Source: an uncultured Opitutia bacterium
Lineage (GTDB): Bacteria > Verrucomicrobiota > Verrucomicrobiia > Opitutales > Opitutaceae
Length of the DNA: 64,000 bases
Assembly: GCA_903834135.1 (NCBI GenBank)
Contig: CAILHZ010000018.1
Coordinates: 1 to 64,000, forward strand
Direction: 5' to 3'
The notes beneath the pieces are model-generated. The model was not told the origin of the DNA. It saw only the letters and a list, made by a program, of their open reading frames with translations, and made no database searches. Position 1 is the stretch's first letter. Each line of letters begins with the position of its first letter. Below are positions 3,767-31,339 of the stretch, in pieces. The position numbers were made by a program, and so were the translations under genes.

Positions 3767-3821
3767 ACTATAAATCACTCATGTTACAATCTGGTGTCGC
3801 AACTGTAACAAACCGGTTAAC
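3767..3821 (-). promoter_or_regulatory. Four-unit Pho-box-like repeat with -10 element
   Basis: Read toward the gene, four hexamers GTTAAC, TGTTAC, CGACAC and TGTAAC start at 3821, 3810, 3799 and 3788, exactly 11 bp apart. Ten bp past the last unit is TATAGT (3772-3767), one mismatch from the consensus -10. PhoB-family regulators are known to bind direct repeats with 11-bp period that replace the -35 and end about 10 bp before the -10. No competing -35 was seen. That PhoB binds here is inferred. Confidence 0.65.
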
Positions 3822-4033
3822 ACTTGATTATTCCTAACAGGTGAAAAAAAATTAATGGAACAGCTAAAAGGTAGTACTCCTCATTAAAAGATCACAAAGA
3901 ATGTATGATACTTTAAATTTGTTAATCAAATTACGTATAAATCATTCTATAGCATATAGATAAGAAATAATAACTTCTACTAATGCGTAACACAGCTCAC
4001 AGCCGTTCTATATCTCAAAAAATATATATTTAA

Positions 4034-4061
4034 GGTCTACATCATTCAAAGGATGTAGACC
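4034..4061 (-). terminator. Terminator after the fucose permease gene
   Basis: A perfect 10-bp stem (4034-4043 with 4052-4061, core GGTCTACATC) has an eight-base loop. On the minus strand it is followed by an AT-rich tract ending in six T. It sits about 40 bp past the permease stop codon. Confidence 0.8.
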
Positions 4062-4101
4062 ACTATTTCTAGATAAAAAGTACCCTAGACCTAATGACTA
4101 A

Positions 4102-5442
4102 TTAATGGCCTGAAGTTGTACTTATTTTTCCAGCACTTTGCGCCTTACTAAATTTAGACCAGTTAAAGCCGTAATAAGACACGAACGCAAAGCACACCAA
4201 AGGAACAACGAAGCCCCTGGACATATCGGTCTGGTCTGCAATATAGCCCATCAATTTTGGGAGTATAGCTCCACCCATAATTGCCATTACAATGTACGAA
4301 GATGCACGTTTAGCGCGCACACCAAGACCGTAAATACCTAGGGCAAAAATTGTTGGGAACATAATCGACATGAAAAAATAACTAAGAAATACAGCACTAA
4401 CAGATATCCAACCAAGTTTGCTAAATACAAGAAAACACAAGATCACATTTATTAAACCATAAATACCCAAAACTTTATGCGCATCGTATTTTCTAAGAAT
4501 AGCAGCCCCACTGAAACGCCCCGCTAAGAAGAAAATAAATCCTAACGATGCTAATTTTGCTGCACCACTGTCGCTGAGTGACAATACGCCAGATTTAGAG
4601 GCCTCAAACCAGCCATGTAACATACCCGAATCCCAAGACTGCGGAATCGCAGGTACTTGTGATGTCATATAATTAATAAAGAAACTAAATATACCTGATT
4701 GTGCAGCGACGTATAAAAACTGAGCAACTACTGCCATTACAAAGTGAGGATGCTTCCAAATTGAGTGTGAGGTCTGATCTGCTGAGTCATCCAGATTGTA
4801 GTCATCCTTCATTTTGATATCGGGCACATTAACAAAATAAAATATTCCCGCTAAAATGATCACAACTACAGCAACACCAGCATAGGGTATCCAAAGGGTT
4901 TGACTTCCGGTACCATGACCAGATGCATCTTTAGAATAGAAAAACATAGCTCCAGCAATTGGTCCAAAAACCCAGCCAATTCCGTTAAAGGATTGAGCTA
5001 GATTAATTCGGGTAGCACCATACTGCGGATCGCCAAGAACTGTTGTATATGGATTAGCAATCGTTTCTAAGAAAGTTAACCCAGCTGCTATCATACATAC
5101 GCCGACTAAAAATGCCCAGAAAGAGGCAATGTGAGTTGCCGGAATAAACCATAAACCACCTACAGCCACCATGAGTAATCCAGCAATAATTCCTCCCTTA
5201 TAGCCTAATTTCGTTGCTAGCCACCCTGCTGGGAGAGCCATTAAAAAGTAGCCTAGATAATGAGCAAATTGCACCCATGCCGATTGTGATAAAGTTAAAT
5301 GCAACTCCTGCTGGAAGTGCTTATCCATCACATCAATCATTCCGTTACAAAACCCCCAGAGTAAAAACAAGGAAGCAACAAGAAAGAAGGTGAACGTATG
5401 GCTCTTGCCATCAGGTGTTTTGAAGAGACTATTTTTATTCAT
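4102..5442 (-). CDS. fucP: FucP-type L-fucose:proton symporter
   Basis: 446 residues of the major facilitator superfamily with about 12 hydrophobic helices, close to the length of E. coli FucP. Diagnostic segments are LFLLWGFCNGMIDVMDKHFQ, with an acidic residue in helix 1, and LETIANPYTTVLG, whose Glu matches the family's helix-4 Glu used in proton coupling. The second half has a long region facing the periplasm or cytoplasm (about 265-290), then FIFFLAGRFSGAAILRKY. It follows the alpha-L-fucosidase by 40 bp in the same direction, which supports fucose as the substrate. Family members also carry galactose, glucose or N-acetylglucosamine. No other fucose-catabolism genes are in the window. 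Confidence 0.8.
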   Translation of the reverse strand: MNKNSLFKTPDGKSHTFTFFLVASLFLLWGFCNGMIDVMDKHFQQELHLTLSQSAWVQFAHYLGYFLMALPAGWLATKLGYKGGIIAGLLMVAVGGLWFIPATHIASFWAFLVGVCMIAAGLTFLETIANPYTTVLGDPQYGATRINLAQSFNGIGWVFGPIAGAMFFYSKDASGHGTGSQTLWIPYAGVAVVVIILAGIFYFVNVPDIKMKDDYNLDDSADQTSHSIWKHPHFVMAVVAQFLYVAAQSGIFSFFINYMTSQVPAIPQSWDSGMLHGWFEASKSGVLSLSDSGAAKLASLGFIFFLAGRFSGAAILRKYDAHKVLGIYGLINVILCFLVFSKLGWISVSAVFLSYFFMSIMFPTIFALGIYGLGVRAKRASSYIVMAIMGGAILPKLMGYIADQTDMSRGFVVPLVCFAFVSYYGFNWSKFSKAQSAGKISTTSGH

Positions 5443-5482
5443 AGGGGTTTAGAAAAGAAACAATTCAGAGAAAACTTTAGCT

Positions 5483-6871: not shown

Positions 6872-6952
6872 GGTTATAAAGACGTAGAAGTATCTACAAA
6901 ATAACACAATTTCATTCGCTATAATCAGACGCTTTTTCTTGAATCTGTAAGA

Positions 6953-7750: not shown

Positions 7751-7810
7751 TATCTGCGTGAGATGGCTCTTATTAAGATCACTTAAGTTCAGTTGCTTAA
7801 TCAAAGCATA

Positions 7811-7840
7811 TGTTACAAATTAACTACAATCGTTTATACA
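7811..7840 (+). promoter_or_regulatory. Weak Pho-box-like repeat upstream of pstS
   Basis: TGTTAC (7811-7816) and AACTAC (7822-7827) lie 11 bp apart, with TATACA at 7835-7840 as a possible -10, closer than the 10 bp seen elsewhere. A lone TGTTAC also sits at 7886. Given the expected control of pstS this may be its Pho site, but the match is poorer than upstream of pstC. Confidence 0.35.
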
Positions 7841-7921
7841 GTTGCCGATATCGCTTTTAGGTTAAGACTTAATACCAGAAAATTTTGTTACATGCATAGA
7901 AAAGTCTAAATAAAAAAACGG

Positions 7922-8944
7922 ATGAGTAGAATATATAAAATGAAGCATGTCGTTTACGCAGTTTATATTCTAGGTCTTTTTTTATCTAGTGCGGCAGCTC
8001 AAATTTTAATTAATGGAGCCGGTGCTACATTTCCAGAGCAAATTTATCAAAAATGGTTTTCTGAATACCAAAAAATTGATCCAACAGTTAGCTTTAACTA
8101 TCAAGGTATAGGTTCTGGGGGCGGGCAAAAACAAATTCTAGCTGAAACAGTAGATTTTGGTGCTTCCGATGGTCCAATGTCAGATCAGAATATAGCAAGA
8201 GCTCCTCGTGAATTGTGGCACATTCCAACGATTGCTGGAGCAGTAGTCATTAGTTACAATCTACCTAATTCCCCAGTTATCAATATTGATGGTCAAACAC
8301 TTGCCTTAATTTATTTAGGATCGATTAGTAAATGGAACGATCCACTAATTGTTAATCAAAACCTAGGAATTCAAATACCTGATATTGATATTGTTGTAGT
8401 ACACCGCTCAGATGGAAGCGGAAGTAGTTTTATATTTTCCGATTTTCTATCAAGTGTTAGCTCGGAGTGGAAAAATAAAGTAGGCAAAAATACCTCTGTA
8501 AATTGGCCTGTTGGTTTAGGCGGCAAAGGAAATGCAGGTGTAGCAAGTCAAATAAAACAATCTCCAGGTGCAATAGGATACATTGAATTAGCCTACGCTC
8601 ATCAAAATAAATTGGCTGTAGCAAATATCAAAAATAGCAGTGGCATATACATTACTCCTTCAGTTCAAAGCGTTAGTGAAGCACTCAAATCTGTCAGTAT
8701 TCCAGATGACTTTCGCTTTTCGATGGTAAATCCAGCAGGCTCTAAAGCATACCCTATATCTGGAATTTCATGGCTACTCGTTTATTCCCAACAAAAAGAT
8801 GCGGCTAAGGGTAAAAAACTGATAGAATTTTTAACTTGGGCTTTTGCAAATGGTGAAAGCTATGCAGCCTCTTTAGATTACGTTGCATTACCCGATAGCT
8901 TGATAAAAAGAGCTATGCTTCGAGTTAATGCCATAAAATATTAA
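7922..8944 (+). CDS. pstS: Phosphate ABC transporter substrate-binding protein
   Basis: 340 residues with a signal peptide (hydrophobic run to LSSAAAQ); the ATG at 7940 is an equally good start. PstS hallmarks are NGAGATFPEQIYQKWFSEY, GIGSGGGQKQILAETVDFGASD, HRSDGSGSSFIFSDFL (the phosphate loop) and GKGNAGVASQIKQSPGAIGYIEL. The protein captures phosphate in the periplasm for PstCAB. Here pstS is separated from pstCAB, which sits about 5 kb away on the other strand, and is followed by a low-affinity Pit system in the same direction. This split layout is not unusual outside Proteobacteria. Confidence 0.92.
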   Translation: MSRIYKMKHVVYAVYILGLFLSSAAAQILINGAGATFPEQIYQKWFSEYQKIDPTVSFNYQGIGSGGGQKQILAETVDFGASDGPMSDQNIARAPRELWHIPTIAGAVVISYNLPNSPVINIDGQTLALIYLGSISKWNDPLIVNQNLGIQIPDIDIVVVHRSDGSGSSFIFSDFLSSVSSEWKNKVGKNTSVNWPVGLGGKGNAGVASQIKQSPGAIGYIELAYAHQNKLAVANIKNSSGIYITPSVQSVSEALKSVSIPDDFRFSMVNPAGSKAYPISGISWLLVYSQQKDAAKGKKLIEFLTWAFANGESYAASLDYVALPDSLIKRAMLRVNAIKY

Positions 8945-9004
8945 GATTAAAATGGCCATCTCTTCTTTTATTCGATCCGTAACATTCATCCTCTGTAAAT
9001 TATC

Positions 9005-9025
9005 GTGTAATTTGCACAATTACAC
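9005..9025. repeat. Perfect inverted repeat between pstS and the DUF47-pit pair
   Basis: GTGTAATT (9005-9012) and its reverse complement AATTACAC (9018-9025) flank five bases. The low GC and lack of a T-run argue against a terminator. An operator for the DUF47-pit unit, about 80 bp downstream, is possible. It does not fit the 11-bp direct-repeat pattern seen elsewhere. Confidence 0.5.
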
Positions 9026-9106
9026 ACGTTTGTTTCTTGCATGCATAATAATTCACAGTGAAAATAGTTAAGCTAATTTCATATCAATTAACCCTATATC
9101 TATACG

Positions 9107-9745
9107 ATGCTATCCCTCCAAAAACTATTCGGCAAAGACGAACTTTTTTTTGATTTACTTGAAGCAGCATCTGAAGAAGCCAGAGTAAGTGTTGTTCTGT
9201 TCGCACAATATCTCCAAGGCCTCAAAACTGGTGGTAATCCTACCAACTTAGATGCATTTGTAAATTCACGCCGTGAAGAAAAAAGACTAAGAAACGAAAT
9301 GACTGCTGCACTGAGCAGAACATTCGTAACTCCCATAGATCGTGAAGACATTGAAGCACTTTCCTTCGCCCTATACCGCATACCAAAGCAGGTAGAAAAA
9401 ATAGTTGAGAGGCTTTCAATTTGCCCTTTTCAAATCCCGTTGGAAGGTTTCCAAAGGCAAAGTCAGCTGATGCAAGAAGCAGTTGAAGATGTTGCTTATA
9501 TGGTTCATCAATTAAGAGCTGGCGCATCACTCGAAAGAATGAGTACAGCAAACAGCCGGCTTCAATACGCTGAAGGTGAAGCTGACAAAGTAATGCTAAA
9601 CCTATTACGTGACTTACACTTTAATTGTGGCGACGTTAAGCAACTTGTAATTTTAAAAGAGCTTTATGAATTAACTGAACATGCTGTGGATCGCTGCCGT
9701 ACCGCAGGCAATGTCGCTATTCAAATCGCACTTAAAAACTCCTAA
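9107..9745 (+). CDS. DUF47/PhoU-like Pit accessory protein
   Basis: 212 residues, all-helical, matching the DUF47 family (TIGR00153-like, PhoU-related) that accompanies Pit transporters. Visible family features are FFDLLEAASEEARVSVVLFAQYL, FVTPIDREDIEALSFALYRIPKQVEKIVER, and a C-terminal ELYELTEHAVDRCRTAGNVAI, an acidic/His pattern resembling the PhoU metal-binding helices. It lies 14 bp before pit, so the two are almost certainly translated from one message. The known role of such proteins is to modulate the paired transporter. It is distinct from the true PhoU at 12.7-13.4 kb. Confidence 0.85.
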   Translation: MLSLQKLFGKDELFFDLLEAASEEARVSVVLFAQYLQGLKTGGNPTNLDAFVNSRREEKRLRNEMTAALSRTFVTPIDREDIEALSFALYRIPKQVEKIVERLSICPFQIPLEGFQRQSQLMQEAVEDVAYMVHQLRAGASLERMSTANSRLQYAEGEADKVMLNLLRDLHFNCGDVKQLVILKELYELTEHAVDRCRTAGNVAIQIALKNS

Positions 9746-9759
9746 TCACTAGGCCACGT

Positions 9760-10788
9760 ATGATCCTGTTTCTCCTGGTTCTAGTGGCAGCACTCGCATT
9801 TGAATTTATTAACGGTTTTCATGATACCGCTAATGCAATTGCAACAGTTGTTTCAACTCGAGTTCTAACACCTCGCGCGGCTATTCTTTGGGCTGCATTT
9901 TGGAATTTACTTGGTGCTTTAGCAGGAACTGCTGTAGCAACGACGATAGGAAAAGGCATTGTTGATATTAGCACTATCACGATGACAACAGTACTTTGTG
10001 CTTTGATAAGTGCGATTCTTTGGAATTTGCTTACATGGTGGCTAGGACTACCCTCTAGCTCTAGTCACGCTCTCATTGGAGGTCTTTGTGGATCAGCATT
10101 TGCAGCCTCAGGAAATAATTGGATGGTGCTAAATTGGAGCAGTGGAATTTGGCCTAAGGTTGTACTACCCATGTTGCTTTCACCTCTCTTAGGTTTTGTA
10201 GGAGGTTTTATCCTGATGTGGTTAATTAAAATTCTTTTTAAAAAAACTAGTCCACGAATTGTTGGTAAAATATTCGGGAAAGCCCAATTACTTAGTGCTG
10301 GATTTATGGGCTGGGGCCATGGATCAAATGACGCCCAAAAAACAATGGGAATCATAACACTGGCACTTTTTACAGGCACTCAAACTGGAGTATTCTCACA
10401 TCTTCCTAGTTGGGCTCACTTCTTGCACGTTACAGAATTCAAAGCTGTTCCTTTTTGGGTTATACTTTTATGTGCACTTACCATGGCCTGCGGTACTGCA
10501 GCGGGTGGCTATAAAATTATCAAAACGATGGGACATAGCATGGTGAAATTACAACCCGTAAACGGATTTGCTGCTGAAACAACTGCTGCAATTATCATCT
10601 CCGGAGCCAGCTCTTACGGAGTTCCCGTTTCGACGACTCACGTGATTGCTACTTCAATTATGGGTGTGGGGGCTACCAAACGTTTAAGTGCTGTTAAATG
10701 GGGCATCGTAGAACGCATAGTATGGGCCTGGGTACTTACTCTGCCCGTAACCTTCATACTCGGGTATATCTTTTCTAGATTCCTTTAA
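9760..10788 (+). CDS. pit: Low-affinity inorganic phosphate transporter Pit
   Basis: 342 residues and about 10 membrane helices. PiT signatures occur in both inverted halves: [21 protein letters not shown] at the N-terminus, [53 protein letters not shown] and [19 protein letters not shown]. At this length it belongs to the short bacterial/archaeal form that lacks the large central loop. It imports phosphate, probably as a metal-phosphate complex, with protons or sodium. The stop codon overlaps that of phoR on the other strand: TTAA at 10785-10788 supplies both. Confidence 0.92.
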
Positions 10789-11969
10789 GCAGCCGCTAAT
10801 GGCAGAGTGAATATAAAGGTAGACCCTTTACCCAACTCACTTTCAACCCTAACATCGCCACCATGTGCTTGAACCACATGCTTGACGATAGCTAGACCTA
10901 AACCTGTTCCTCCTTGATCTCGTGAACGGGCTTTATCTACGCGAAAAAACCTTTCAAAGATTCGTGATTGAACATCAAGTGGGATACCTGGTCCATCGTC
11001 CATTATTCTCACTTCGATACGCTTCGTAGCAAGTACTGATGAACTGATATAAATTGAACCTTCATTCTTACCATACTTGATGGCATTATCGATTAAGTTA
11101 GATAGCACTTGGCGGAGTCTATTAGGATCAGCACTTGCATAGATATCTTCTTTAACCTGGTTCACTATAGTAATGCCCCTGCGCTGTGCTGCCGGTAATA
11201 GATCCTCACTGATTTCATTAATTGCTAAATAAAGTCCTACTGCTTGTAACTGTAATTGCATGCGGCCCGAATCTAAGGTAGATAGCAGAAGCAAATCATC
11301 AATCAGCAGCGATAATCTGTTAGCATTACGTTCAATAATTTCAAGAAAACGGCCCAGAGTTTTGGTATCGTCTTTGGCGCCATCGATGAGTGTTTCTACA
11401 GCGCTTTTAACTAGGGATAAAGGAGTTCTTAATTCATGACTCACATTACCTACAAACTCTTGTCTGACTACTTCTAGTTCACGCATTCGAGTTAAATCGT
11501 GGAAAACAAGTATTGCACCGTCATACATACCATCTCGGTTACGGAGCGCTAATGCATTAATTTGTAAAAACCGTGGTGGATTAACACCTTCTATACGTAA
11601 ATCATGACCTAAGACCTCTGAATCTTCAGCTAGTCGAGAAATAATTTCATTAACTTCATAGTTACGTACTACTTCTATTAGACTTCGACCCACTGCAGGA
11701 TTTGAAAAACCAAAAAGAGAGGAAGCTGCTTTATTACTAAGGCGTATGAATCCTTTAGAATCTAAAACGATTACCCCCTCAATCATGCGATCGAACAAAG
11801 TTATCGTACGCGTTGCCTGCTCTTCTAGTTCCGCTTCACGAATAAATTGCTGCTGTTCAGCCTCTACCAATTTATCGGCTTCAAGCTTGGTGGCTCGCTT
11901 ACGCTCCATCACCCAGGCTATAACAGCAATGAGTGTAATGATGTTTGTTATTAAAACGTAATAGGACAT
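10785..11969 (-). CDS. phoR: Phosphate-regulon sensor histidine kinase
   Basis: 394 residues. One N-terminal membrane helix (about 4-21) and no periplasmic sensor are followed by a charged coiled coil, a PAS domain (about 55-160), a HisKA domain with phospho-acceptor H178 ([16 protein letters not shown]), and a HATPase domain with an N-box ([13 protein letters not shown]) and glycine boxes ([19 protein letters not shown]). This is the standard PhoR architecture. It is the last gene of pstC-pstA-pstB-phoU-phoB-phoR; the 53-bp gap from phoB shows no terminator. Signalling likely goes through the Pst complex and PhoU. As in E. coli, phosphate itself is probably not sensed directly. Confidence 0.9.
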
Positions 11970-12022: not shown

Positions 12023-12706
12023 TTATTCACCAATAAAACGGTAGCCAACACCCCTAACCGTTTCTAAATAATTTGCTGATTCGCCTAATTTTTCTCTCAA
12101 GCGTCTCATATGAGTATCGACTGTGCGACTATCGATTGGATTTTCATATCCCCATACATCTTGCAATAGTCGTTCACGCGATTGCACTCGGCCACGCCTC
12201 TTTGCCAATATTTCAAGTAGATTAAATTCGGTCAATGTAAGAGTCACCTCTTTACCAGCTAATTTGACGACATGTGTTGGTATATCGATTTCTATATCAC
12301 CAATCTTAATATAGGCGCCAGACTCTGGAGTGCTCGAGTTTCTAGCTAACAACTTTCGAATTCTTAATACAAGTTCTCTAGGACTAAAGGGTTTAGTAAC
12401 ATAGTCATCTGCACCAAGCTCAAGGCCTACAACTCTATCCATTTCTGCAGCCCTCGCAGTTAGCATGATGATTGGCATCTTGGCTGTATTTGCATCACGT
12501 CTTAGAATTTTACATACTTCAAGACCATCAACTTCAGGCAACATGAGATCCAACACCATAAGGTCAGGCTTTTCATCTCGAGCAGCTGCTATGGCACGCG
12601 TGCCATCTTTAGCAAATATTGGATTAAATCCAGCTTCACGAAGCTTGAATCCAAGAATTTCGAGTGCATCACTCTCATCATCTACAATTAGTATCTTAGG
12701 TTTCAT
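12023..12706 (-). CDS. phoB: Phosphate-regulon response regulator
   Basis: 227 residues: an OmpR-family receiver with phosphorylation site D53 (LMVLDLMLPEVDG), acidic pair D9-D10, T/K switch residues (MLTARA; DDYVTKPFSPRE), then a winged-helix DNA-binding domain. The recognition helix region (DSRTVDTHMRRLREKLG) is very like E. coli PhoB, which binds 11-bp-periodic direct repeats; this fits the repeats upstream of pstC and other genes here. The start is 2 bp from the phoU stop, so translation is coupled. It is the obvious candidate regulator for the repeats in this window. Confidence 0.92.
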   Translation of the reverse strand: MKPKILIVDDESDALEILGFKLREAGFNPIFAKDGTRAIAAARDEKPDLMVLDLMLPEVDGLEVCKILRRDANTAKMPIIMLTARAAEMDRVVGLELGADDYVTKPFSPRELVLRIRKLLARNSSTPESGAYIKIGDIEIDIPTHVVKLAGKEVTLTLTEFNLLEILAKRRGRVQSRERLLQDVWGYENPIDSRTVDTHMRRLREKLGESANYLETVRGVGYRFIGE

Positions 12707-12707: not shown

Positions 12708-13361
12708 TTATTTAATATTTTGGTGACGGATATCTACAGCTTCATATAAATAGACAACTTCTTCGGCTATATTCGTGGAATGATCAGCTATCTTTTCTAA
12801 ACTTTTGCATATTGTCATAAGACTAAGACAACGACTTATGGTATTAGAACGATCGATCATTAAGCTCATCAGTTCTTGATGGAGCAGATTATTAAGGTTA
12901 TCGACTTCAGTATCCTTAGGTATGACATTACGTGCACGTAAAGGATCGCGATTGATAAACGATGCAATTGAATCATTTAACATCTCAAGAGCCATCGAAG
13001 ACATACGCGGTATATCAACATAAGGTTTCAATTGAGGCTCAGCTCCCAAATCAATTGATTTACGAGCGATAGTAACAGCAGCATCCCCTACACGCTCCAG
13101 ATTCTGCGCAATCTTCATTGCAACCATAGTAAACCGTAAATCAGTTGCTAATGGTGCTTTTGCTAAAAGATGAATTGCTACGTCATCTACCCTCATTTCA
13201 AATTCATCAAGAACATTATCATCGTCTATAACCTGCCTAGCTAGCGCGTCATCTCTTTCAATCAACGCACGAATTGAACGTGCAACAGAGGCCTCTGCAT
13301 GACTAGACATAGAAAGCACAATTTGCTTAAGCGTATTTAATTCTTCTGTATAGTGGCTCAT
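12708..13361 (-). CDS. phoU: Phosphate signalling protein PhoU
   Basis: 217 residues, within the normal PhoU length, made of two three-helix PhoU repeats. Family motifs are visible: RVDDVAIHLLAKAPLATDLRFTMVAMKIAQNLERVGDAAVTIAR in the first half (the ERxGDxA metal-binding motif) and ICKSLEKIADHSTNIAEEVVYLYEA in the second (EKIADHSTNIAE, the repeat motif). PhoU links the Pst transporter to PhoR and keeps the kinase off when phosphate is plentiful. It sits between pstB and phoB as expected. Confidence 0.92.
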   Translation of the reverse strand: MSHYTEELNTLKQIVLSMSSHAEASVARSIRALIERDDALARQVIDDDNVLDEFEMRVDDVAIHLLAKAPLATDLRFTMVAMKIAQNLERVGDAAVTIARKSIDLGAEPQLKPYVDIPRMSSMALEMLNDSIASFINRDPLRARNVIPKDTEVDNLNNLLHQELMSLMIDRSNTISRCLSLMTICKSLEKIADHSTNIAEEVVYLYEAVDIRHQNIK

Positions 13362-13372
13362 TTAATTTAATA

Positions 13373-14200
13373 TTATCCGAATCTGCCTGATACATAGGCT
13401 TCAGTTTGTGGATTAAGGGGATTTGTGAATATAGTGCGCGTTTCACTGTATTCGATCAGTCGTCCTAAATAGAAAAATGCGGTTTTATTAGAACAACGAG
13501 ATGCCTGCTGCATATTATGCGTAACAATAACAATAGAGACTTTAGTTCTTAATGTCTGAATTAATTCTTCAATTTTCATCGTCGCTATTGGATCAAGAGC
13601 AGAACAGGGCTCATCCATAAGCAGCACTTCAGGCTGTACTGCTAAAGCCCTAGCAATACATAAGCGCTGCTGTTGACCACCAGATAAACTAACTCCTGGA
13701 CGATCTAAAAAGTCCTTAACCTCATCCCATAAAGCAGAAAGTCTTAACGATTCCTCAAGACGTTGCTTTAAAAACTTTTGGTCATTTACACCGTTTAAAC
13801 GCAGTCCAACTAAAACATTCTCAGCAATCGACATTGTTGGAAATGGATTAGATTTTTGAAAAACCATTCCTACACGTCTTCTAACATAAGCCGCATCGAT
13901 GCTCTTTAAGTATAGATCGTCTCCAAATAACTTTATGGAACCCTCCATACGCGAGCCAGCAATCGTTTCATGTAATCGATTTAAAGAACGTAAAAATGTT
14001 GATTTCCCGCAACCACTCGGTCCAATGATCGCTGTCACTTGGTTTGCTGCTATATCAAATGAAACATCATGCAAAGCCTGGTTCTGAGAATACCATAGCT
14101 TCAGATTCCTAATTTCAAAAGCAGGAATCACAGACACTGTGGGTTTTATTACCTGTGTGCCTATAATTATTCTCTTTTTTAGATTATCTATTGAAGTCAT
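13373..14200 (-). CDS. pstB: Phosphate ABC transporter ATPase
   Basis: About 275 residues from the ATG at 14200, preferred because it starts 4 bp after the pstA stop; the longer reading from 14242 overlaps pstA. Walker [10 protein letters not shown], the Q-loop (FQKSNPFP, the PstB-specific NPFP motif), signature [15 protein letters not shown], Walker [14 protein letters not shown] and the H-switch ([10 protein letters not shown]) are all intact. The N-terminus carries about 35 extra residues before the first strand compared with the compact E. coli protein. It powers phosphate import with PstA and PstC. Confidence 0.93.
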
Positions 14201-14204
14201 AAAA

Positions 14205-15086
14205 TTAGGTGGTCGATTTATTCCGAGATATAAAGCGAACAATAATATTAATACCTAATATGAGTAACATAAGCACAAGGGCCCCAGCCCATGCCTGATG
14301 ATGCAGATCTTCATAGGGAGATATTGCATAAGTATAAATCTGCAACGGAAGTGCTGCGATAGGTTGCGCTAGACTGTGATTCCAAAAACTATTTCCAAAT
14401 GCTGTAAATATAAGAGGCGCAGTTTCACCTGATACACGAGCAATTGCAACTAATACACCGGTTACAATTCCTTTAAGCGCAGTTCTTAAAACAATAGATG
14501 AAATTATCTTCCACCGTGCGATCCCTAAGGCTAGACCTGCTTCGCGATAGCTTTGAGGAACTAGGAGGATTACTTCTTCTGTAGTTCGCATAATAAGAGG
14601 AATCATGATTAGACCTAGCGCTAGACCCCCTGCATATGCAGAGAAAGCTTTAAAGGGAATAACTAGAATAGCGTAAACTACCATACCCCAAACAATAGAC
14701 GGAACACCATTGAGAATATCAGCACATAACCGAATCCAATAATTTACTGTTTCATTACCATACTCAGCTAGATATACACCGCCTAAAATACCTAAAGGGA
14801 TCCCAATACTACTAGCCAGTGCGAGTAATGTGATAGAACCAACAATCGCATTAGCCATACCTCCACCAATTTCACCAGAGGGTTTAGGGAGTTGAGTGAA
14901 GAAATCTACAGTAAGTGATGAGGCACCTTCTTTAGCCAAAAAATATAAGACTAAGAAAAGTGGTGTAACAACAAGGATCGTTGCACAGCCTAGAGCAAGT
15001 TTTACAAAGTAGCTCTTCCATCGTCTCAATTTCTGTTGACGCTCAGAAGGACGAAAATGAACAACATTTGAGTATAAATTATTCAT
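14205..15086 (-). CDS. pstA: Phosphate ABC transporter permease PstA
   Basis: 293 residues with six membrane helices. The first follows a basic cytoplasmic tail, and a BPD_transp_1 core holds the EAA-type coupling loop ([29 protein letters not shown]). [19 protein letters not shown] and [10 protein letters not shown] are typical PstA segments. The start codon overlaps the pstC stop in a TAATG arrangement, which implies translational coupling. With PstC it forms the membrane channel of the high-affinity phosphate transporter. Confidence 0.93.
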
Positions 15087-16051
15087 TAATTTTTTGCAGA
15101 CGCTCCATTCGTCAATTGCCTGAGCATAAGTTGAGCAATAGCATTAACAATTAATGTAATCACTAAGAGCACAAGTCCGAGTTCAAACAAAGAACTCATG
15201 TATAAATCTGTAGTCGCTTCTGCAAATTCATTAGCAATCACACTTGCTAGCGTATACCCAGGAGCAAACAGTGAAGCGCTAATCACTGGACTATTTCCAA
15301 TTACCATCGTGACAGCCATCGTTTCACCCAGGGCACGTCCTAATCCCAAGACACCTGCACCAAACAAACCACGCTTTGCATAGCTTAAAACTGCAATACG
15401 AATTACTTCCCAGTGTGTTGCACCTAGAGCATAAGCAGCTTCACGTTGGAGATCAGGAACAGCACGTAGCACTTCACGTGAAAAGGAAGTCACTATAGGT
15501 AAAATCATAATAGCTATTACAATTCCACCGGAGAGCATACTTACACCATAAATAGGGCCTTTAAATAACGGGAGGAAACCGAACGTACTTTTTAAAAACG
15601 GATAAAAAGAATCTCTCATCCAAGGAATTAAAACAAAAATTCCCCAAAGGCCATATATTACACTAGGAACTGAAGCTAAAAGCTCTATGATTGTTATGAT
15701 AGGCTGTCTAATACTCAGGGGTGCAACTTCTGTTAGAAAAAGTGCTGCGGCAACACCTAGAGGAATTGCTATGAGCAGTGCAAGCAAAGAGGACACTAGC
15801 GTTCCATATATAAAAGGTAATGCACCGTAGATATCAGCAGCTGGATCCCAGGCTAAATTTTTTACGAAACTAAAACCAAATTGATGCACGGATAGAGACG
15901 AACTTCGGTAAAGTTCATACCCAACAAGTACAATGAGTAGAACAATCATTAAAGCGCCTACCATGGCCAAATATTTAAATGAGATATCCGGCCACTTTCT
16001 ACCCTTTCTATAATTCAGGGCCGCACTATACTGAGGAGCAATCTCATGCAT
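15086..16051 (-). CDS. pstC: Phosphate ABC transporter permease PstC
   Basis: 321 residues with six membrane helices. PstC-type features are YGALPFIYGTLVSSLLALLIAIPLGVAAALFLTE, LLASVPSVIYGLWGIFVLIPWM, the coupling loop (REAAYALGATHWEVIRIAVLSYAKRG) and GLGRALGETMAVTMVIGN. It is the first gene of the pst-pho operon, which runs through pstA, pstB, phoU and phoB to phoR. A three-unit 11-bp repeat lies about 118 bp upstream, so the operon encoding PhoB is probably self-activated. Confidence 0.93.
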   Translation of the reverse strand: MHEIAPQYSAALNYRKGRKWPDISFKYLAMVGALMIVLLIVLVGYELYRSSSLSVHQFGFSFVKNLAWDPAADIYGALPFIYGTLVSSLLALLIAIPLGVAAALFLTEVAPLSIRQPIITIIELLASVPSVIYGLWGIFVLIPWMRDSFYPFLKSTFGFLPLFKGPIYGVSMLSGGIVIAIMILPIVTSFSREVLRAVPDLQREAAYALGATHWEVIRIAVLSYAKRGLFGAGVLGLGRALGETMAVTMVIGNSPVISASLFAPGYTLASVIANEFAEATTDLYMSSLFELGLVLLVITLIVNAIAQLMLRQLTNGASAKN

Positions 16052-16409
16052 TTAATAAAAAGAGTGTAAAATCTGTGACGCGCTTAATTAACTAGGATTT
16101 CAATATGAAGAGTTAGTTTATTAAACGAGTTAACATTAGTCTCCCAAGTAACATGATATACACAGATTGTTACAATTGTGTTAAGGACGTGTGACGATCG
16201 TGGCAAACCAACCATGTACCTCGTAGACCATGTAATCATTGCGGCTCTTTACTATTTAGAGCTTAAAATAATATAATATACTGTTAATTAGCTACTTACA
16301 ATTAATTTGATAGATTCGGTAAATGAATAAGTTTCAGATTAGTGAATTTAGAATTTATAACTGTTAAATCTCATGCTGAATAGTGAATATACAGCATCAG
16401 ACCTAATTC
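16052..16409. other. Divergent promoter region between pstC and the SulP gene
   Basis: 358 bp without a gene. The pstC side has the three-unit repeat and -10 at 16153-16196. The SulP side (about 16200-16409) is very AT-rich, with a weak GCTCT/AGAGC hairpin near 16244-16262. I see no 11-bp-periodic repeat facing the SulP gene and no convincing promoter for it. Confidence 0.6.
16153..16196 (-). promoter_or_regulatory. Three-unit Pho-box-like repeat and -10 of the pst-pho operon
   Basis: Read toward pstC, CGTCAC, CTTAAC and TGTAAC start at 16196, 16185 and 16174, each 11 bp apart. Exactly 10 bp further is TATCAT (16158-16153), one mismatch from the consensus -10. The geometry is the same as upstream of the secreted PstS-like gene. 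The operon downstream is the classic PhoB target, so this site anchors the interpretation of the others. Confidence 0.65.
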
Positions 16410-24529: not shown

Positions 24530-24587
24530 TAAGTAAGTCTAGTCATACATTTGTAACATACGAATAAGGCTGGTCATTCATTCGTAA

Positions 24588-24642
24588 TGTAGCGTAATTG
24601 TGACAGAATCGTAACGCTTACGCCATGTGAATAAGTTATATT
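24588..24642 (+). promoter_or_regulatory. Pho-box-like repeat and -10 of the lipid-remodelling operon
   Basis: TGTAGC, TGTGAC and CGTAAC begin at 24588, 24599 and 24610, exactly 11 bp apart and in the direction of transcription. TATATT at 24637-24642 is a good -10. It lies 21 bp after the third unit, and 10 bp after a degenerate fourth position (CGCCAT, 24621-24626). An isolated TGTAAC at 24552 is out of phase. Confidence 0.6.
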
Positions 24643-24669
24643 GCAGGAAGACTTTATGTTCTTCTGCAT

Positions 24670-25827
24670 GTGAAAATCGCTTTTGTAACTGAAACCTTTC
24701 CTCCTGAAATCAACGGAGTAGCAATGACCTTTGGGGTTATTACTCGTGAGCTGGCTCGACGACACTCAGTTACAGTTTATAGACCTACACGTACAGATCT
24801 TAAAACGCGCGAAAAGCAAACTGGTATAAATGAAGTATTTCTACCAGGTCTACCTATACCCCGCTATCCTGAGTTGCGTCTTGGTTTTCCAGCGCATTCA
24901 AAACTAGAAAAACTGTGGATAGAAAATAGACCCGATCTAGTGCATGTGGCCACCGAAGGCCCGCTGGGCGCATCAGCTATCACAGTTGCACGTAATCTAG
25001 GAATTGCAGTCACCTCTAGTTTCCATACAAACTTTCACACTTACACAAAACACTACGGAATTGGCGCACTCAAAAGTGTAGCCATCTGGTGGCTAAGACG
25101 TGTTCATAATCGCACCTTAGCAACTTTCACACCCACAGAAGAATTACTGAAAGAACTTCATGCTGAAGGCTTCAAAAATCTAGCAATTTTATCACGTGGA
25201 GTGGACACAACTCAGTTTGGTACTCAGCGCAGATCTGAAGAATTAAGACAGAGCTGGGGTGCAAAACCAACAGATCCTGTTGTTGTACATGTTGGTCGTA
25301 TGGCCCCTGAAAAGAACTATCCCCTTCTTTTTAAGGCGTATGAACGCATGAAGGATATCGCACCTAATACGATTTTCGTAATGGTGGGAGACGGACCTTT
25401 AAAATCTCAGCTTGCTAGAGAATTTCCGAGTGCAGTTTTTACAGGGTTTGTGTCCCGCGATGACCTAGCTAAGCACTATGCTTCAGCTGATATTTACATT
25501 CATGCGAGTTTATCGGAAACTTTTGGTAATGTACTCACAGAGGCCATGGCTAGTGGCTTAGCTACTGTATCGTTTGATTATGCTGCAACTAGAAAATTCG
25601 TGGTAAATGGCAAAAACGGACTCTGCGTAGATACCGATGATAGCATTGGTTTTATCAAAGCTTCAGAACAACTTGTACGAGATGCAGGGTTAAGAATTAA
25701 TATGGCAAACGAAGCAAACGCTTCAGTTAAAAATCAGTCTTGGGAAAAAGTAATTAGTCACTTTGAGGAGCAGCTCATTGAAATTGTTAATAATTTTTAT
25801 AAAAAGCCGGCTAATACTATTAAATGA
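24670..25827 (+). CDS. GT4 glycosyltransferase, probable glycolipid synthase
   Basis: 385 residues from a GTG start (the ATG nearby is followed at once by a stop). The GT4/GT-B pattern is clear: MKIAFVTETFPPEINGVA at the N-terminus, FHTNFHTYTKHYG, FTPTEELLKELHAEGF, SRGVDTTQFG, HVGRMAPEKNYPLLFKA, VMVGDGPLKSQL, and the E-x7-E nucleotide-sugar motif in HASLSETFGNVLTEAMASGL. It resembles the SqdX, alpha-mannosyl and DAG-glycosyl transferases of phosphate-stressed bacteria. It heads an operon with a GT28 MGDG-synthase-like enzyme, a lipid kinase and a PlcP-like phosphoesterase, so I infer transfer of a sugar to diacylglycerol or to a glycolipid. Sugar and acceptor are not determined. Confidence 0.75.
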   Translation: MKIAFVTETFPPEINGVAMTFGVITRELARRHSVTVYRPTRTDLKTREKQTGINEVFLPGLPIPRYPELRLGFPAHSKLEKLWIENRPDLVHVATEGPLGASAITVARNLGIAVTSSFHTNFHTYTKHYGIGALKSVAIWWLRRVHNRTLATFTPTEELLKELHAEGFKNLAILSRGVDTTQFGTQRRSEELRQSWGAKPTDPVVVHVGRMAPEKNYPLLFKAYERMKDIAPNTIFVMVGDGPLKSQLAREFPSAVFTGFVSRDDLAKHYASADIYIHASLSETFGNVLTEAMASGLATVSFDYAATRKFVVNGKNGLCVDTDDSIGFIKASEQLVRDAGLRINMANEANASVKNQSWEKVISHFEEQLIEIVNNFYKKPANTIK

Positions 25828-26960
25828 GTCTCACATTACAGTCAGATCTTTCGACAAAAATTTGCACTAAGGTGCTAATCTTAACCGCAGGATACGGCGA
25901 AGGACATAATGCTGCAGCACGTGCACTTTCCTCTGCAAGTGAAGAATTATCCCCTGGTTCTTCAGCAGTTGTAGATCTTTTTAGTATAGCGTCACCTAAA
26001 TTCAATGATGTAGCGCGAAAACTCTACATCCAAATGATAAATAAAACACCCCATCTTTGGAGTGCCGCATACAGTTGGATGGATACATCTAAACTGCTTC
26101 CCAAAATTATAAAATCAATGAAGCGTGAGCATAGGCTTCTCTTAGAAATTATCACAAAAGAGAAACCTGATGTTATATGCAGTACATACCCCGTTTATGC
26201 TTTCTTGATCGAGAATCTAAGAAATGAAGGTAAGCTTAATATTGCTCACTACAATATTGTCACCGATTCAATCAGTATAAATTCTCTATGGTGGAAAGCT
26301 GGAGCGCACGGTTGGTTTGTACCCAATCAAGACTCGGCAGATTTCATGATAGAGAAAGGTGTAGAGAGGTCAAAAATTCATAATAGCGGCTTCCCAGTAA
26401 ATCCGTTTTTTTCTCTTAATAAAGATATTCTTAAGCGCTCAAGTCTTACACAGGGAAGTGCGCCTAGAGTACTTTATATTATCAACTCTGGAACACGATA
26501 TGCGGAAGAAACAGCATCAGCACTACTTGCACAAAATGATTGGGAAATTACATGTGCTGTTGGGCGTGATGAATCACTCAAAGCTAAACTAACAGCCAAA
26601 GCTCAAGGCCGTTTAAGACCAGCAAGTATACTTGGTTGGACAAATACAATTCCTGAACTACTTATGACACATCACGTCGTGGTAAGCAAAGCAGGAGGAG
26701 CTACAACCCAAGAAGCTATTGCTGCATGCTGTCCGATGATCGTAAATCAAATCGTCCCAGGACAAGAGGAAGGTAACTACGAATTATTGAGGCGTCGAAA
26801 TATAGGCTCACTTTCTCAGACACCTGAGGAAGTAATCTCGTCTCTTAGGAACGCATTTTCAAATTCCGGAAACGTTTGGGAATCGTGGCATAATTCACTA
26901 ATGACACTCACCCAGCCTAAAGCGGCATATACGATAATCAATCACTTGATGAAGAGTTAA
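25824..26960 (+). CDS. MGDG-synthase-like GT28 glycosyltransferase
   Basis: 378 residues. The N-terminal half matches the MGDG synthase N-domain (VLILTAGYGEGHNAAARAL, KPDVICSTYPVYAFLIENL, YNIVTDSISINSLWWKAGAHGWFVPN). The C-terminal half holds the GT28 UDP-sugar site (VVVSKAGGATTQEAIAACCPMIVN, then PGQEEGNYELL). The enzyme class adds a hexose to diacylglycerol to make monoglycosyl-DAG. Translation starts inside the ATGA that ends the GT4 gene, so the two are coupled. Either glycosyltransferase could make the first sugar and the other extend it. Sugar donor unknown. Confidence 0.8.
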   Translation: MSLTLQSDLSTKICTKVLILTAGYGEGHNAAARALSSASEELSPGSSAVVDLFSIASPKFNDVARKLYIQMINKTPHLWSAAYSWMDTSKLLPKIIKSMKREHRLLLEIITKEKPDVICSTYPVYAFLIENLRNEGKLNIAHYNIVTDSISINSLWWKAGAHGWFVPNQDSADFMIEKGVERSKIHNSGFPVNPFFSLNKDILKRSSLTQGSAPRVLYIINSGTRYAEETASALLAQNDWEITCAVGRDESLKAKLTAKAQGRLRPASILGWTNTIPELLMTHHVVVSKAGGATTQEAIAACCPMIVNQIVPGQEEGNYELLRRRNIGSLSQTPEEVISSLRNAFSNSGNVWESWHNSLMTLTQPKAAYTIINHLMKS

Positions 26961-26990
26961 TTAAAATTCGTACCTATTTCTAATAATCAA

Positions 26991-27863
26991 ATGAAAATTC
27001 ACTTCATTATAAATCCAAAATCGGGACGAAAAGGTGCATTACGTCTTTTACCTGTAATCGAAGAATTTTCTAGAACATATAAGTTATCTAGCACCATAGC
27101 ATTAACTCAAGGACCAGGACATGCAACTACACTAGCTAGAGAAGCTGTAAATCAAGGATTTGAACGCATCGTAGCTGTAGGTGGTGACGGTACGATGAAC
27201 GAAGTAGCTCAAGCTCTACTGCATCAGAATTCAGCTCTAGGATTATTGCCCTGCGGTTCTGGTAATGGACTAGCCCGTTTTCTTAAACTTCCTACGTCCC
27301 CTATTGAAGCACTTAAAATTGCTACATCTAAAAACTCTTACATAAAAAAAATTGATACTGGCAGTGTAAATGGTCTACCGTTTTTCAACGTTATGGGTCT
27401 AGGACTCGATGCAGATGTAAGTCGTAGATTTAATTTACTACCAAAACGTGGCCTACCTTCATACACAAAAGCTGCAATACAGGCGTTTATCGGACGTAAA
27501 ACAGAGCATTGCGACATACAGTGCGATGGTAATGCATATCCCTTAGATATTCTCTTAATCAGTATAGCTAATTCAAACCAATACGGAAATGGAGCCATAA
27601 TTGCTCCTAACGCTCTAGTAGACGATGGACTACTCGATTTAATCGCAATTAAACCTATTGGAATAATGGGTGCCCTATCACTTGCCTCCAAGCTTTTTGC
27701 TGGGACTATCGATAAGAGTGTATTTGTAAAACGCATAGAAGGTCGACGTTTTAACATACAAAGAGCACAACCGGGTTTAATTCACACAGATGGAGAAAGC
27801 CACGATACAGGTGCCTTAGTAAAAGTTGAAATCATTAGCAGCAGCCTACGCATAGCCTGTTAG
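26991..27863 (+). CDS. Diacylglycerol/lipid kinase (YegS/DagK family)
   Basis: 290 residues of the DAG-kinase catalytic family: FIINPKSGRKG at the start, AVGGDGTMNEVAQAL (G64-T68, nucleotide site), LGLLPCGSGNGLARFLKL, FNVMGLGLDADVSRRF, and a C-terminal beta sandwich with VDDGLLDLIAI and PGLIHTDGESHDTG. It starts 30 bp after the GT28 gene. In this setting it may rephosphorylate DAG released by the PlcP-like enzyme and so return it to phosphatidic acid, or it may phosphorylate another lipid such as a sphingoid base. Family assignment is firm; substrate is open. Confidence 0.8.
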   Translation: MKIHFIINPKSGRKGALRLLPVIEEFSRTYKLSSTIALTQGPGHATTLAREAVNQGFERIVAVGGDGTMNEVAQALLHQNSALGLLPCGSGNGLARFLKLPTSPIEALKIATSKNSYIKKIDTGSVNGLPFFNVMGLGLDADVSRRFNLLPKRGLPSYTKAAIQAFIGRKTEHCDIQCDGNAYPLDILLISIANSNQYGNGAIIAPNALVDDGLLDLIAIKPIGIMGALSLASKLFAGTIDKSVFVKRIEGRRFNIQRAQPGLIHTDGESHDTGALVKVEIISSSLRIAC

Positions 27864-27956
27864 AACAAACTTATAGATCAAAAAAAGAAGTCAAAAATCT
27901 TAAAAGATAAAACCCAGCAAGAGTCTTTTTCATTAACGCTTTAGCCAATTAAAGAC

Positions 27957-28769
27957 ATGCCTAAATTACGCGTACGTACCGTTATCCTTTCTGACATTCA
28001 CCTAGGATCAGTTGAAAGTAAAGCAACTGAGGTGAATCACTTTCTTAGACATGTACGATGTGAAAAATTAATTCTAAACGGAGATATTATCGATGGCTGG
28101 CAACTCAAGCGAAGTGGTCAGTGGACCAAAGCACACACTCGGTTCATTCGCATAGTACTTAAGATGCTAGAAAAAAGAGATACACATGTCATTTATTTAC
28201 GCGGTAATCATGATGACATTCTTTCCAAATTCCTTCCACTAGATTTTGAGAATTTACAGATTGTAGAAGAGCACGTACATGAAACACCTAAGGGTAAATA
28301 CTTAGTCTTACACGGTGACATCTTTGATTCCGTTACGAAGAACTTTGTTTTTATATCACACCTTGGTGACTGGGGTTACACTCTACTGCTTAAGATAAAT
28401 CGTGCCTATAACATATGGAGATCATGGAGAGGTAAAGAATACTGGTCGCTAAGTAAGGCAATCAAAGCTAGAGTTAAGGAAGCAGTAAACCATGTATCAA
28501 ACTTTGAGACACATATTGCTGATCTTGCAAGAGATCGTAACTGCATGGGTGTAATGTGCGGCCATATTCACACACCAGCTGATAAATATATCGATGAAAT
28601 ACACTATCTAAACTCAGGTGATTGGGTAGAATCTATGACCGCAATAGTAGAACACTTTGACGGATCATTTGAGATGATTGAGTACAATAATTTCGTGAAA
28701 GACTACCCTGTAGTTGATGAGAACAGCAGCGACGAAATATCAAGTGAAGCAGTTAGCAGAACTGTTTAA
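27957..28769 (+). CDS. plcP: PlcP-like metallophosphoesterase, probable phospholipase C
   Basis: 270 residues, calcineurin-like. Metal ligands are in place: SDIHLGS (D13, H15), NGDIIDGWQLKR (D43), RGNHDDI (N84, H85), VLHGDIFDSVTK and MCGHIHTPA. The long VNFET-like region with HVSNFETHI and the ending LNSGDWVESMTAIVEH match PlcP of alpha-proteobacteria, which removes phospholipid head groups under phosphate starvation to give DAG. UDP-2,3-diacylglucosamine pyrophosphatase (LpxH/LpxI-like) is a related but less fitting alternative, given the operon. It follows the lipid kinase by 93 bp in the same direction. Confidence 0.78.
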   Translation: MPKLRVRTVILSDIHLGSVESKATEVNHFLRHVRCEKLILNGDIIDGWQLKRSGQWTKAHTRFIRIVLKMLEKRDTHVIYLRGNHDDILSKFLPLDFENLQIVEEHVHETPKGKYLVLHGDIFDSVTKNFVFISHLGDWGYTLLLKINRAYNIWRSWRGKEYWSLSKAIKARVKEAVNHVSNFETHIADLARDRNCMGVMCGHIHTPADKYIDEIHYLNSGDWVESMTAIVEHFDGSFEMIEYNNFVKDYPVVDENSSDEISSEAVSRTV

Positions 28770-28787
28770 TCCTTAAAGTAATACTTT

Positions 28788-28814
28788 TATATTTAAGACA
28801 GATTCTTAAATATA
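28788..28814. terminator. AT-rich inverted repeat between convergent plcP and phosphofructokinase genes
   Basis: TATATTTAAG (28788-28797) and CTTAAATATA (28805-28814) form a perfect 10-bp stem with a seven-base loop. It lies between two converging stop codons. Weak in GC, but its position suggests a bidirectional terminator. Confidence 0.45.
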
Positions 28815-28823
28815 CTTATTCAC

Positions 28824-29963: not shown

Positions 29964-30018
29964 TTAAGCAAACAGAACAGTTGTAAACGTCGATTTTTTT
30001 ACAAATTAAGCGATAAAA

Positions 30019-30036
30019 CGTAACACGTCTGTAACC
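30019..30036 (-). promoter_or_regulatory. Two-unit Pho-box-like repeat upstream of the phosphofructokinase gene
   Basis: Read toward the gene, GGTTAC and TGTTAC start at 30036 and 30025, 11 bp apart. On the other strand the same bases read CGTAAC and TGTAAC, also 11 bp apart. The box is 56 bp before the ATG. The region 10 bp downstream has only a weak -10 (TTAATT), so this is less certain than the boxes upstream of pstC and the secreted operon. Confidence 0.4.
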
Positions 30037-30075
30037 TTTATACTCAAGGCATAACCCCAAGTAATAAAGCACCTG

Positions 30076-31263
30076 TTAACGAGGAACCTCAATTGATACT
30101 GTAGTTGACTTACCCCAAACAATATTGCCCTGTGAAGCTTTAGTATTCCAAAGGCACTCACGTGCAGTCAATAGATGTGTCTTCGTACTAAACGTCACAA
30201 TTTGAAATGCTAGTTTGCTTTCATCTTTACCTGAAAATTGTCCTTTCATAGGTGAATCGGAGCGAAAGGTATTCAATTGTACATTCTTATCTGGTCCCTT
30301 CCATGTGTAGAATTCAGTGAAATTGGAATGACCATGAAAATACGCAACGATTTGGGGATGGTCTTTGATAAAGCTAGCAAGCTGTCTTTGTTCAATATCT
30401 GTCTCTCCATCGGACTCTGTACCATCAGAGTAAATATCACAGACTACATTTTCAAATTTATCTTCACGATTTATATCATGCTTGCCGTTCGGATTAGTGA
30501 GATGCCTTGCATCGATTGCTGGCATATCATGGCAAAAAATAAATACAGGAATGTCTTTAGCTACCGTTTTTAGATCATTGGCAATCCAGGCGCGTGCAGT
30601 ACTATCTGGCCACATTGTAATAAAAATTTCGTGTGCACCACCAATATTTTTTGAGTAATAAATTCTATTATCTTTAAAATTATATGTCTCTTTAGTAACT
30701 TTCGTGATCGGATGCATGTAGCGATTATAAAGCTCGGCCAAGGTGGTTGCATCTGTAGCCGGGACTAACTTGCTTGGAGAACCAATTGCGTTCGAGACAT
30801 CATGATTTCCAGGCACTAGAAATAGAGGAGCCTTATTTCCTGTTACAGTTTTAAGATTAAGGCCATTTAGATAACACTGCTCAAATTCCTTCCAAGAGGC
30901 TTGAGCACTTTGTATTTTTATAGGGTACAATTCTTGTCGATTCGTTAGATCTCCTGTTATAACTGTAAAATCGATTCCTCCAATTTTTTCCCCCGAGCGA
31001 ACGCCTGTATCTTCAGGTATAATTGCATCAGCACTTGAATTAATAACACTCAGCATCGCTGCATTCACATCCTTTGAAGGAACATTTACCTTACCTCGAA
31101 ATCCTAGGCGACTTAATCCAAAATGAACGTCTGATGTAAAAACGAATGTAGCTTCGTAATTATGTGCTTCAACAGCCTCATCGCCTAATAGGTTTCTGGA
31201 AACTGACAATGAAACCAAAACACATATTAGATAAAGCCAGGATTTATTTTTAAAATAAGACAT
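30076..31263 (-). CDS. Secreted calcineurin-like phosphoesterase
   Basis: 395 residues with a signal peptide (KNKSWLYLICVLVSLSVS). Metallophosphoesterase motifs are TSDVHFG, ITGDLTN, VPGNHDVS, IFCHDMP and YFHGHSNFTE, so all the usual metal ligands are present. The insertion between the motifs and the C-terminal beta extension (about 310-395) are similar in size to secreted acid phosphatase or phosphodiesterase relatives; I cannot name the substrate. With a two-unit TGTAAC repeat upstream, I infer a periplasmic or extracellular enzyme that releases phosphate under starvation. Similarity to sphingomyelinase-like phosphoesterases is possible but unproven. Confidence 0.75.
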   Translation of the reverse strand: MSYFKNKSWLYLICVLVSLSVSRNLLGDEAVEAHNYEATFVFTSDVHFGLSRLGFRGKVNVPSKDVNAAMLSVINSSADAIIPEDTGVRSGEKIGGIDFTVITGDLTNRQELYPIKIQSAQASWKEFEQCYLNGLNLKTVTGNKAPLFLVPGNHDVSNAIGSPSKLVPATDATTLAELYNRYMHPITKVTKETYNFKDNRIYYSKNIGGAHEIFITMWPDSTARAWIANDLKTVAKDIPVFIFCHDMPAIDARHLTNPNGKHDINREDKFENVVCDIYSDGTESDGETDIEQRQLASFIKDHPQIVAYFHGHSNFTEFYTWKGPDKNVQLNTFRSDSPMKGQFSGKDESKLAFQIVTFSTKTHLLTARECLWNTKASQGNIVWGKSTTVSIEVPR

Positions 31264-31305
31264 CTTTATTTATTTAAATAAACACAATCTATGTTGAATG
31301 CAGCA

Positions 31306-31339
31306 ACGATAACCGATTAAAAGTTACAAATAAGTTACA
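31306..31339 (-). promoter_or_regulatory. Two identical TGTAAC units upstream of the secreted phosphoesterase
   Basis: Read toward the gene, TGTAAC starts at 31339 and again at 31328, exactly 11 bp apart and identical. TATCGT (31311-31306) lies 11 bp past the second unit and could serve as a -10 (four of six). The site lies about 45-75 bp upstream of the start codon. This is the cleanest pair of identical units in the window. Confidence 0.55.

Follow-up and report, generated by a model that had tools for sequence, protein, structure and literature searches.

What reads the tandem hexamers that precede phosphate-related genes in an uncultured Opitutia bacterium of the family Opitutaceae (Verrucomicrobiota)? 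In a stretch of 64,000 nucleotides (contig CAILHZ010000018.1 of assembly GCA_903834135.1, positions 1 to 64,000; hereafter the window), copies of about YGTNAC recur at 11-bp intervals upstream of a gene for a secreted 438-aa protein, of pstC, of a lipid operon and of a gene for a secreted metallophosphoesterase (Table 1). We propose that these arrays are Pho boxes, predicted operators of the response regulator PhoB encoded in the same window, and that they spell a known operator in a lineage-specific way, a reading to which we assign a probability of about 0.92. An earlier, sequence-only reading had taken the repeats to mark a local Pho regulon. It placed hexamers in exact 11-bp register at four loci, −10 elements (TATAGT and TATCAT) exactly 10 bp beyond the final unit at the first two sites, and phoB within the window. 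Every coordinate that it quoted was verified, as were both spacings and the presence of phoB, and the regulon itself is supported by the period specificity, phosphate-gene enrichment and conservation described below.

Period-specific arrays upstream of phosphate genes

Arrays were scored by matching three units to YGTNAC (maximum 15) on both strands; because GTNAC, the core of the unit, is palindromic, one site may count twice. Scores of at least 14 were reached in the window by five arrays at period 11 and by none at periods 7–10 or 12–16, compared with 0.03 ± 0.17 (maximum 1) in dinucleotide shuffles (n = 100), the kind of control by which the earlier reading had proposed to judge the repeats. 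Among the 5′ regions of 30 window genes, a score of 14 occurred solely at the 438-aa protein gene, the gap between pstC and the SulP gene, and the lipid operon. The region 5′ of the secreted phosphoesterase gene scored 12, with two perfect units, as did that of an SNF2 gene; since control periods reach 12 once in the same 30 genes, this score means little by itself. Perfect YGTNAC pairs numbered four in the window (the lipid site contributes two, one per strand) versus 0.28 in shuffles (maximum 2). Support is weaker for the two-unit site at 31339 than for the three-unit sites: a third unit, ATTCAT at 31350, is poor, and its −10 candidate, TATCGT, lies at 11 bp. Two hexamers absent from the earlier reading plausibly extend other boxes, TTTGCC at 16207 as the fourth, most upstream unit of box 2 and CGCCAT at 24621 as the fourth unit of box 3, with TATATT 10 bp beyond the latter.

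The same arrays recur in relatives. In 20 pst stretches (328,684 bases, both strands), periods 7 to 17 together yielded 41 arrays scoring at least 14, every one of them at period 11. By our own reading, all 20 stretches have an array of at least 13 located 5′ of pstS or else 5′ of the phosphate-porin gene ahead of it; four of the stretches (G016, G018, G026 and G036) were picked after a box between pstS and pstC was known; two of the porin genes were checked by Pfam (Porin_O_P and Porin_5). Orthologues of the lipid operon carry an array of at least 13 at period 11 in 23 of 30 loci, compared with 0–1 at other periods. A strict pattern searched in 57 genomes matched 28 of them, at 44 loci once overlapping, both-strand and near-adjacent rows had been merged, and its reversed control gave 0 matches. 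By our own assignment, 24 of the 44 loci belong to phosphate genes, 14 lie 5′ of dnaA and 6 lie elsewhere; a partial pstS placed one locus (G007 C42), a neighbouring ispG another (G010 C193) and the distance to dnaA a third (G036 C120). Genes at strict matches that were checked by Pfam include Porin_O_P, Porin_5, PBP_like_2, PhoU, VTC, metallophosphoesterase and glycosyltransferase families. These counts bear out the expectation that the units would be enriched upstream of pst, pho, phosphatase and plcP orthologues and conserved in orthologous promoters, here those of the pst and porin genes and of the lipid operon.

Box anatomy was read from 25 aligned phosphate sites, hand-picked, with two window sites, one VTC site and one PhoU site included and the arrays in L086, L089 and L090 and the PiT pairs left out. 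Their consensus runs nTTnnC, YGTMAC, CGTCAC, YGTAACa, 9 bp, then the −10 element; over the whole set, position four of the unit is unconstrained, its final position is almost always C, and many units begin with CG (CGTCAC). At 10 bp, NANNNT is found in 20 of the 25 sites, compared with 0–4 at other distances from 3 to 20 bp. In a rule-based lipid set (all 23 of 30 loci scoring at least 13), it stands at 10 bp in 11, at 11 bp in 3 and otherwise in 0–1; a first lipid subset of 17 of the 30 loci, two of them scoring only 12, had given 12 of 17 at 10 bp. The 10-bp spacing from final unit to TANNNT holds across relatives and, like the arrays themselves, their period, positions and conservation, is read directly from the DNA.

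Several further boxes were noted in relatives. An array lies 5′ of a gene with a VTC domain in G013 (L098), which we take to belong to the polyphosphate polymerase family. Four relatives (L050, L052, L054 and L059) have a terminator-like hairpin between pstS and pstC, and immediately before it a two-unit box that is perfect or nearly so. An order-level relative has an array 5′ of a PhoB homologue (L300), and in one distant genome, G228, several 11-bp units overlap to form long arrays at three places (C45:52828, C45:117343 and C68:357).

PhoB as the predicted binder

We infer that PhoB is the binder, that binding activates and that the signal is low phosphate. Phosphorylated PhoB would sit side by side on three to four YGTNAC copies spaced by 11 bp, about one helical turn; the final copy would take the place of the −35 element, and PhoB would recruit RNA polymerase to the TANNNT −10 element 10 bp downstream. 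In this way low phosphate would induce pstCAB-phoU-phoB-phoR and the glycolipid-remodelling operon, together with the genes for the 438-aa secreted protein and the secreted phosphoesterase. The phoB and phoR genes adjoin boxes. The recognition helix of PhoB may be conserved, with RTVDxHxRRLR retained in the alignment of the window protein; its base-contacting residues are presumed ones.

Direct repeats of about 10–11 bp are the usual targets of OmpR-family regulators, and the arrays might instead be sites of one or more other OmpR/PhoB-family proteins, such as the CopR-like regulator encoded at C8:49186. At least four PF00486 matches are present in 34 of 36 family relatives (G001–G036), and in two genomes with the dnaA array, G001 and G028, no PhoB match reaches E ≤ 1e-50. 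Against this, the bacterium's own genome (G000; 2.65 Mb, 26 contigs, 94% complete) has two PF00486 matches, the PhoB beside the boxes and the CopR-like protein, whose gene is followed by a kinase-like open reading frame, and in G030, which has the dnaA array, the single PF00486 match is the PhoB beside pst. The targets are moreover phosphate genes, and the −10 spacing is that of Escherichia coli phoA, which makes another regulator quite improbable. Coincidence is hardly credible at all. It would have the palindromic and common GTNAC core picked out where it happened to lie near interesting genes, and one count agrees with that: perfect TGTNAC pairs in the own genome show no enrichment at period 11, with 5 rows by our own tally versus 11 rows in 9 places at period 12. 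The signal requires three units, and perfect two-unit matches alone are rejected as evidence. For three-unit sites chance is ruled out by the period specificity at relative pst loci, the shuffles of the window and the empty reversed control in 57 genomes; the case is weakest for the two-unit site at 31339.

Beside those pair counts, several observations weigh against PhoB operators as the full account of the arrays. In the own genome, 10 places hold three GTNAC units with no more than one mismatch, and 7 hold the reversed pattern. The 10 are the three window sites, one array near a metallophosphoesterase gene (C26:35555, 413 bp before it; the product has a weak match to the purple-acid-phosphatase N-domain), one before dnaA, two within coding genes and three unexplained (C5:15541, C5:137404 and C8:83258), which have no known phosphate link; the many intragenic, transcriptionally inert PhoB sites described for E. 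coli in the sections consulted of PMC10294691 counsel caution over such arrays. Within the window, pstS (score 9), PhoU_div-PiT (9) and phoB (10) have no array of their own 5′ of them; phoB is co-directional with pstC, pstA, pstB and phoU, which precede it. The window PhoB scores 252 bits, below the TIGR02154 equivalog cut-off of 296. Among the 44 strict loci, 6 were assigned neither to phosphate genes nor to dnaA, and the array is not restricted to classical Pho genes, because 14 lie 5′ of dnaA. Finally, a scan of 193 genomes of the phylum found 20 with a strict match and 7 with a reversed-control match, a small excess outside the family (12 of 174 versus 6 of 174) and a larger one within it (8 of 19 versus 1 of 19). 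Because the counts fall off outside the family, the strict box is chiefly a trait of the family, and our claim for it rests on the family rather than the phylum. The suggestion of a distinct verrucomicrobial box holds for a variant spelling in this family; its difference from the E. coli box is modest, and a verrucomicrobial scope is consistent with the data, not proven.

Of the perfect three-unit array at C5:15541–15567 (L061, L133), we note that it lies between convergent genes, has no −10 at 10 bp and perhaps serves a small transcript. In the window, a two-unit box at 30019–30036 (GGTTAC, TGTTAC on the minus strand; the perfect pair CGTAAC, TGTAAC on the plus strand) starts 73 bp 5′ of a phosphofructokinase gene (28824–29963, minus strand; PKTIDND motif), for which a phosphate link is possible. 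The earlier 'PstS-like' label of the 438-aa secreted protein is unproven: it fits by motif only, and was left unconfirmed by family searches, by comparison with solved structures (0 matches) and by a structure model with a mean pLDDT of 28.3. Context, rather than a family match, suggests that the metallophosphoesterase of the lipid operon is PlcP-like.

Table 1. Genes, predicted Pho boxes and candidate −10 elements in the window
Feature	Coordinates	Strand	Details
438-aa secreted protein gene	2367..3683	-	PstS-like by motif only; no family match
-10 of box 1	3767..3772	-	TATAGT; exactly 10 bp past final unit
Predicted Pho box 1	3783..3821	-	Four 11-bp-spaced units: GTTAAC 3821, TGTTAC 3810, CGACAC 3799, TGTAAC 3788; chance excluded; 5′ of 438-aa secreted protein gene (2367-3683)
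pstS	7922..8944	+	TIGR00975
PhoU_div (DUF47) + PiT phosphate transporter	9107..10788	+	
phoR/PnpS-like histidine kinase	10785..11969	-	
phoB response regulator	12023..12706	-	43% identical to E. coli PhoB
pstC, pstA, pstB, phoU	12708..16051	-	
-10 of box 2	16153..16158	-	TATCAT; exactly 10 bp past final unit
Predicted Pho box 2	16169..16207	-	TTTGCC 16207, CGTCAC 16196, CTTAAC 16185, TGTAAC 16174, 11-bp spacing; 5′ of pstC-pstA-pstB-phoU-phoB-phoR (16051-10785), in gap common to divergent SulP gene
Predicted Pho box 3	24588..24626	+	TGTAGC 24588, TGTGAC 24599, CGTAAC 24610, probable fourth unit CGCCAT 24621; 5′ of glycolipid operon 24670-28769
Candidate -10 of box 3	24637..24642	+	TATATT; 10 bp past probable fourth unit, 21 bp past third
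Lipid operon	24670..28769	+	GT4 glycosyltransferase, MGDG-synthase family, DAG-kinase family, metallophosphoesterase
Secreted metallophosphoesterase gene	30076..31263	-	PF00149
Predicted Pho box 4	31323..31339	-	TGTAAC 31339 and 31328, both perfect; weakest of four; 5′ of secreted metallophosphoesterase gene

The array upstream of dnaA

The new part of the finding is a conserved array 5′ of dnaA. Sequence upstream of dnaA was covered in 45 of the 57 genomes (that of G026 is probably truncated by a contig end), and 23 of the 45 have a three-unit array scoring at least 13 between −560 and −400, with 0 of 45 at six control periods. Positions are mostly near −480 (−475 to −483 in 15 of the 23), distances being measured to where the DnaA match begins, which may be a few codons into the reading frame. 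The bacterium's own array lies at C16:401785–401811 (L062); others were seen at L096, L100, L106, L113, L115, L117, L119, L122, L123, L128–L130 and L306, between ispG and dnaA where checked. A −10 element at 10 bp was found beside none of 23 dnaA arrays (in this set G012, scoring 12, replaces G036 of the position counts). The largest NANNNT excess, 7 of 23 at 17 bp, is one arm of a GGCTTnnnnAAGCC dyad, and a GGCTTnnnnAAGCC-like dyad follows the array in genus relatives. Core conservation in an alignment of 18 genomes is not independent evidence, because the genomes were chosen after their dnaA arrays were known and all score at least 12.

We treat the dnaA array as a probable site of PhoB, through which dnaA or a transcript close by may be controlled. 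That PhoB directly controls dnaA across the family, so that phosphate status would set the initiator level through repression or action at a distance from about −480 without a −10 element of its own, is possible and is put forward tentatively. Co-occurrence of PhoB and the array is weak: at threshold 13, the array is present in 21 of 36 PhoB-positive and 2 of 9 PhoB-negative genomes (p = 0.07), p is 0.02 at thresholds 12 and 14, and within the family the counts are 20 of 27 versus 2 of 4 (p = 0.56). G001 and G028 have the array with no PhoB match at E ≤ 1e-50. A physiological connection between phosphate and dnaA has precedent, because starvation lowers DnaA or dnaA in Caulobacter: starvation, including that for phosphate, lowers DnaA through inhibited translation (in the text covered of PMC10723716), and dnaA is among the genes lowered on severe cytoplasmic phosphate starvation (in the text covered of PMC11208175). 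The latter source ascribes the replication effects to cytoplasmic phosphate and not to PhoB, which counts against a general PhoB–dnaA link. No report of a PhoB or PhoP operator at dnaA or oriC was found in those portions of the literature searched for one.

The array could alternatively be part of a replication origin, serving as a response-regulator site in oriC as for MtrA, CtrA and ArcA. Its place in the ispG–dnaA gap, adjoining a conserved block with DnaA-box-like words, would fit, and response regulators at oriC are known (PMC4285127); PhoB is not among the origin-binding regulators given in the portion of that paper covered, where the word has 0 occurrences. GC skew, sampled in 20-kb stretches, points the other way, with no sign switch at dnaA in G032 or on the own contig C16, and with terminus polarity at the nearest switch in G016. 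We consider an origin at the array unlikely, and it is unsupported by GC skew in the three genomes sampled. In G016 and G032 the skew switches lie away from dnaA, that of G016 turning from minus to plus between 1.9 and 2.4 Mb with dnaA at base 1.

A defined, searchable Pho box for the family would make its phosphate regulons readable from genomes, among them glycolipid remodelling, phosphate porins and the VTC-domain gene. The dnaA array makes it testable whether the phosphate regulator itself sets replication-initiator levels; if it does, phosphate supply may feed into the control of dnaA.

Comparison with known systems

A box upstream of the PhoU_div-PiT operon invites comparison with Sinorhizobium meliloti, in which a PHO box just 5′ of the translation start of orfA-pit accompanies repression on starvation (PMC3131613, in the parts covered). 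In four genus relatives (G001, G002, G006 and G007; loci L200, L202, L204 and L205), a perfect two-unit box starts 25–28 bp before the PhoU_div start codon, likewise near the start codon of the operon; the window genome differs, with no such box in this start region. A perfect pair lies 5′ of PhoU_div-PiT in 5 of 29 loci, the fifth, in G054, being far upstream at −124. Because the box is too near the start codon for a pst-type promoter, and given the orfA-pit precedent, repression of PiT by PhoB is the natural guess, and by analogy the box in the four relatives suggests it.

PlcP is reported in Verrucomicrobia, and PhoB-controlled plcP clusters, which combine a PlcP-type phosphoesterase with a glycosyltransferase, contain putative Pho boxes (PMC4796936); the lipid operon is similar in these respects and differs in its gene set of GT4, MGDG-synthase family, DAG-kinase family and phosphoesterase. 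A box consensus for this lineage was not found in the parts covered of that paper, and no verrucomicrobial Pho box consensus was found in the portions of the literature searched for one, including across phyla. The dnaA arrays resemble the mycobacterial MtrA boxes at oriC, which are GTCAC direct repeats near dnaA (PMC4285127, in the part covered); they differ in the regulator, and there is no origin evidence here.

The Pho boxes of E. coli are among the closest known systems. The phoA promoter of strain K-12, compared directly, has the same layout (TGTCAT and TGTCAC in 11-bp register, with TATAGT 10 bp further on), and K-12 pstS has the same architecture in multi-unit form (TGTCAT, TGTCAT, TTACAT, TGTCAC). 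The 10-bp distance and a −10 of TAN3T/A are described for the E. coli Pho box in the text covered of PMC1906773. In place of the E. coli TGTCAT/C unit, the 25 sites have YGTNAC with position-specific units, usually in three or four copies, and the difference between the units is modest. In the cyanobacterial SphR box, three or more 8-bp repeats likewise stand in tandem, separated by 3-bp linkers, and the unit is CTTAACCT (same source) where that of the arrays described here is YGTNAC. Because the unit varies between phyla, as CTTAACCT of SphR illustrates, a non-E. coli unit lowers the identity of the box and not the mechanism.

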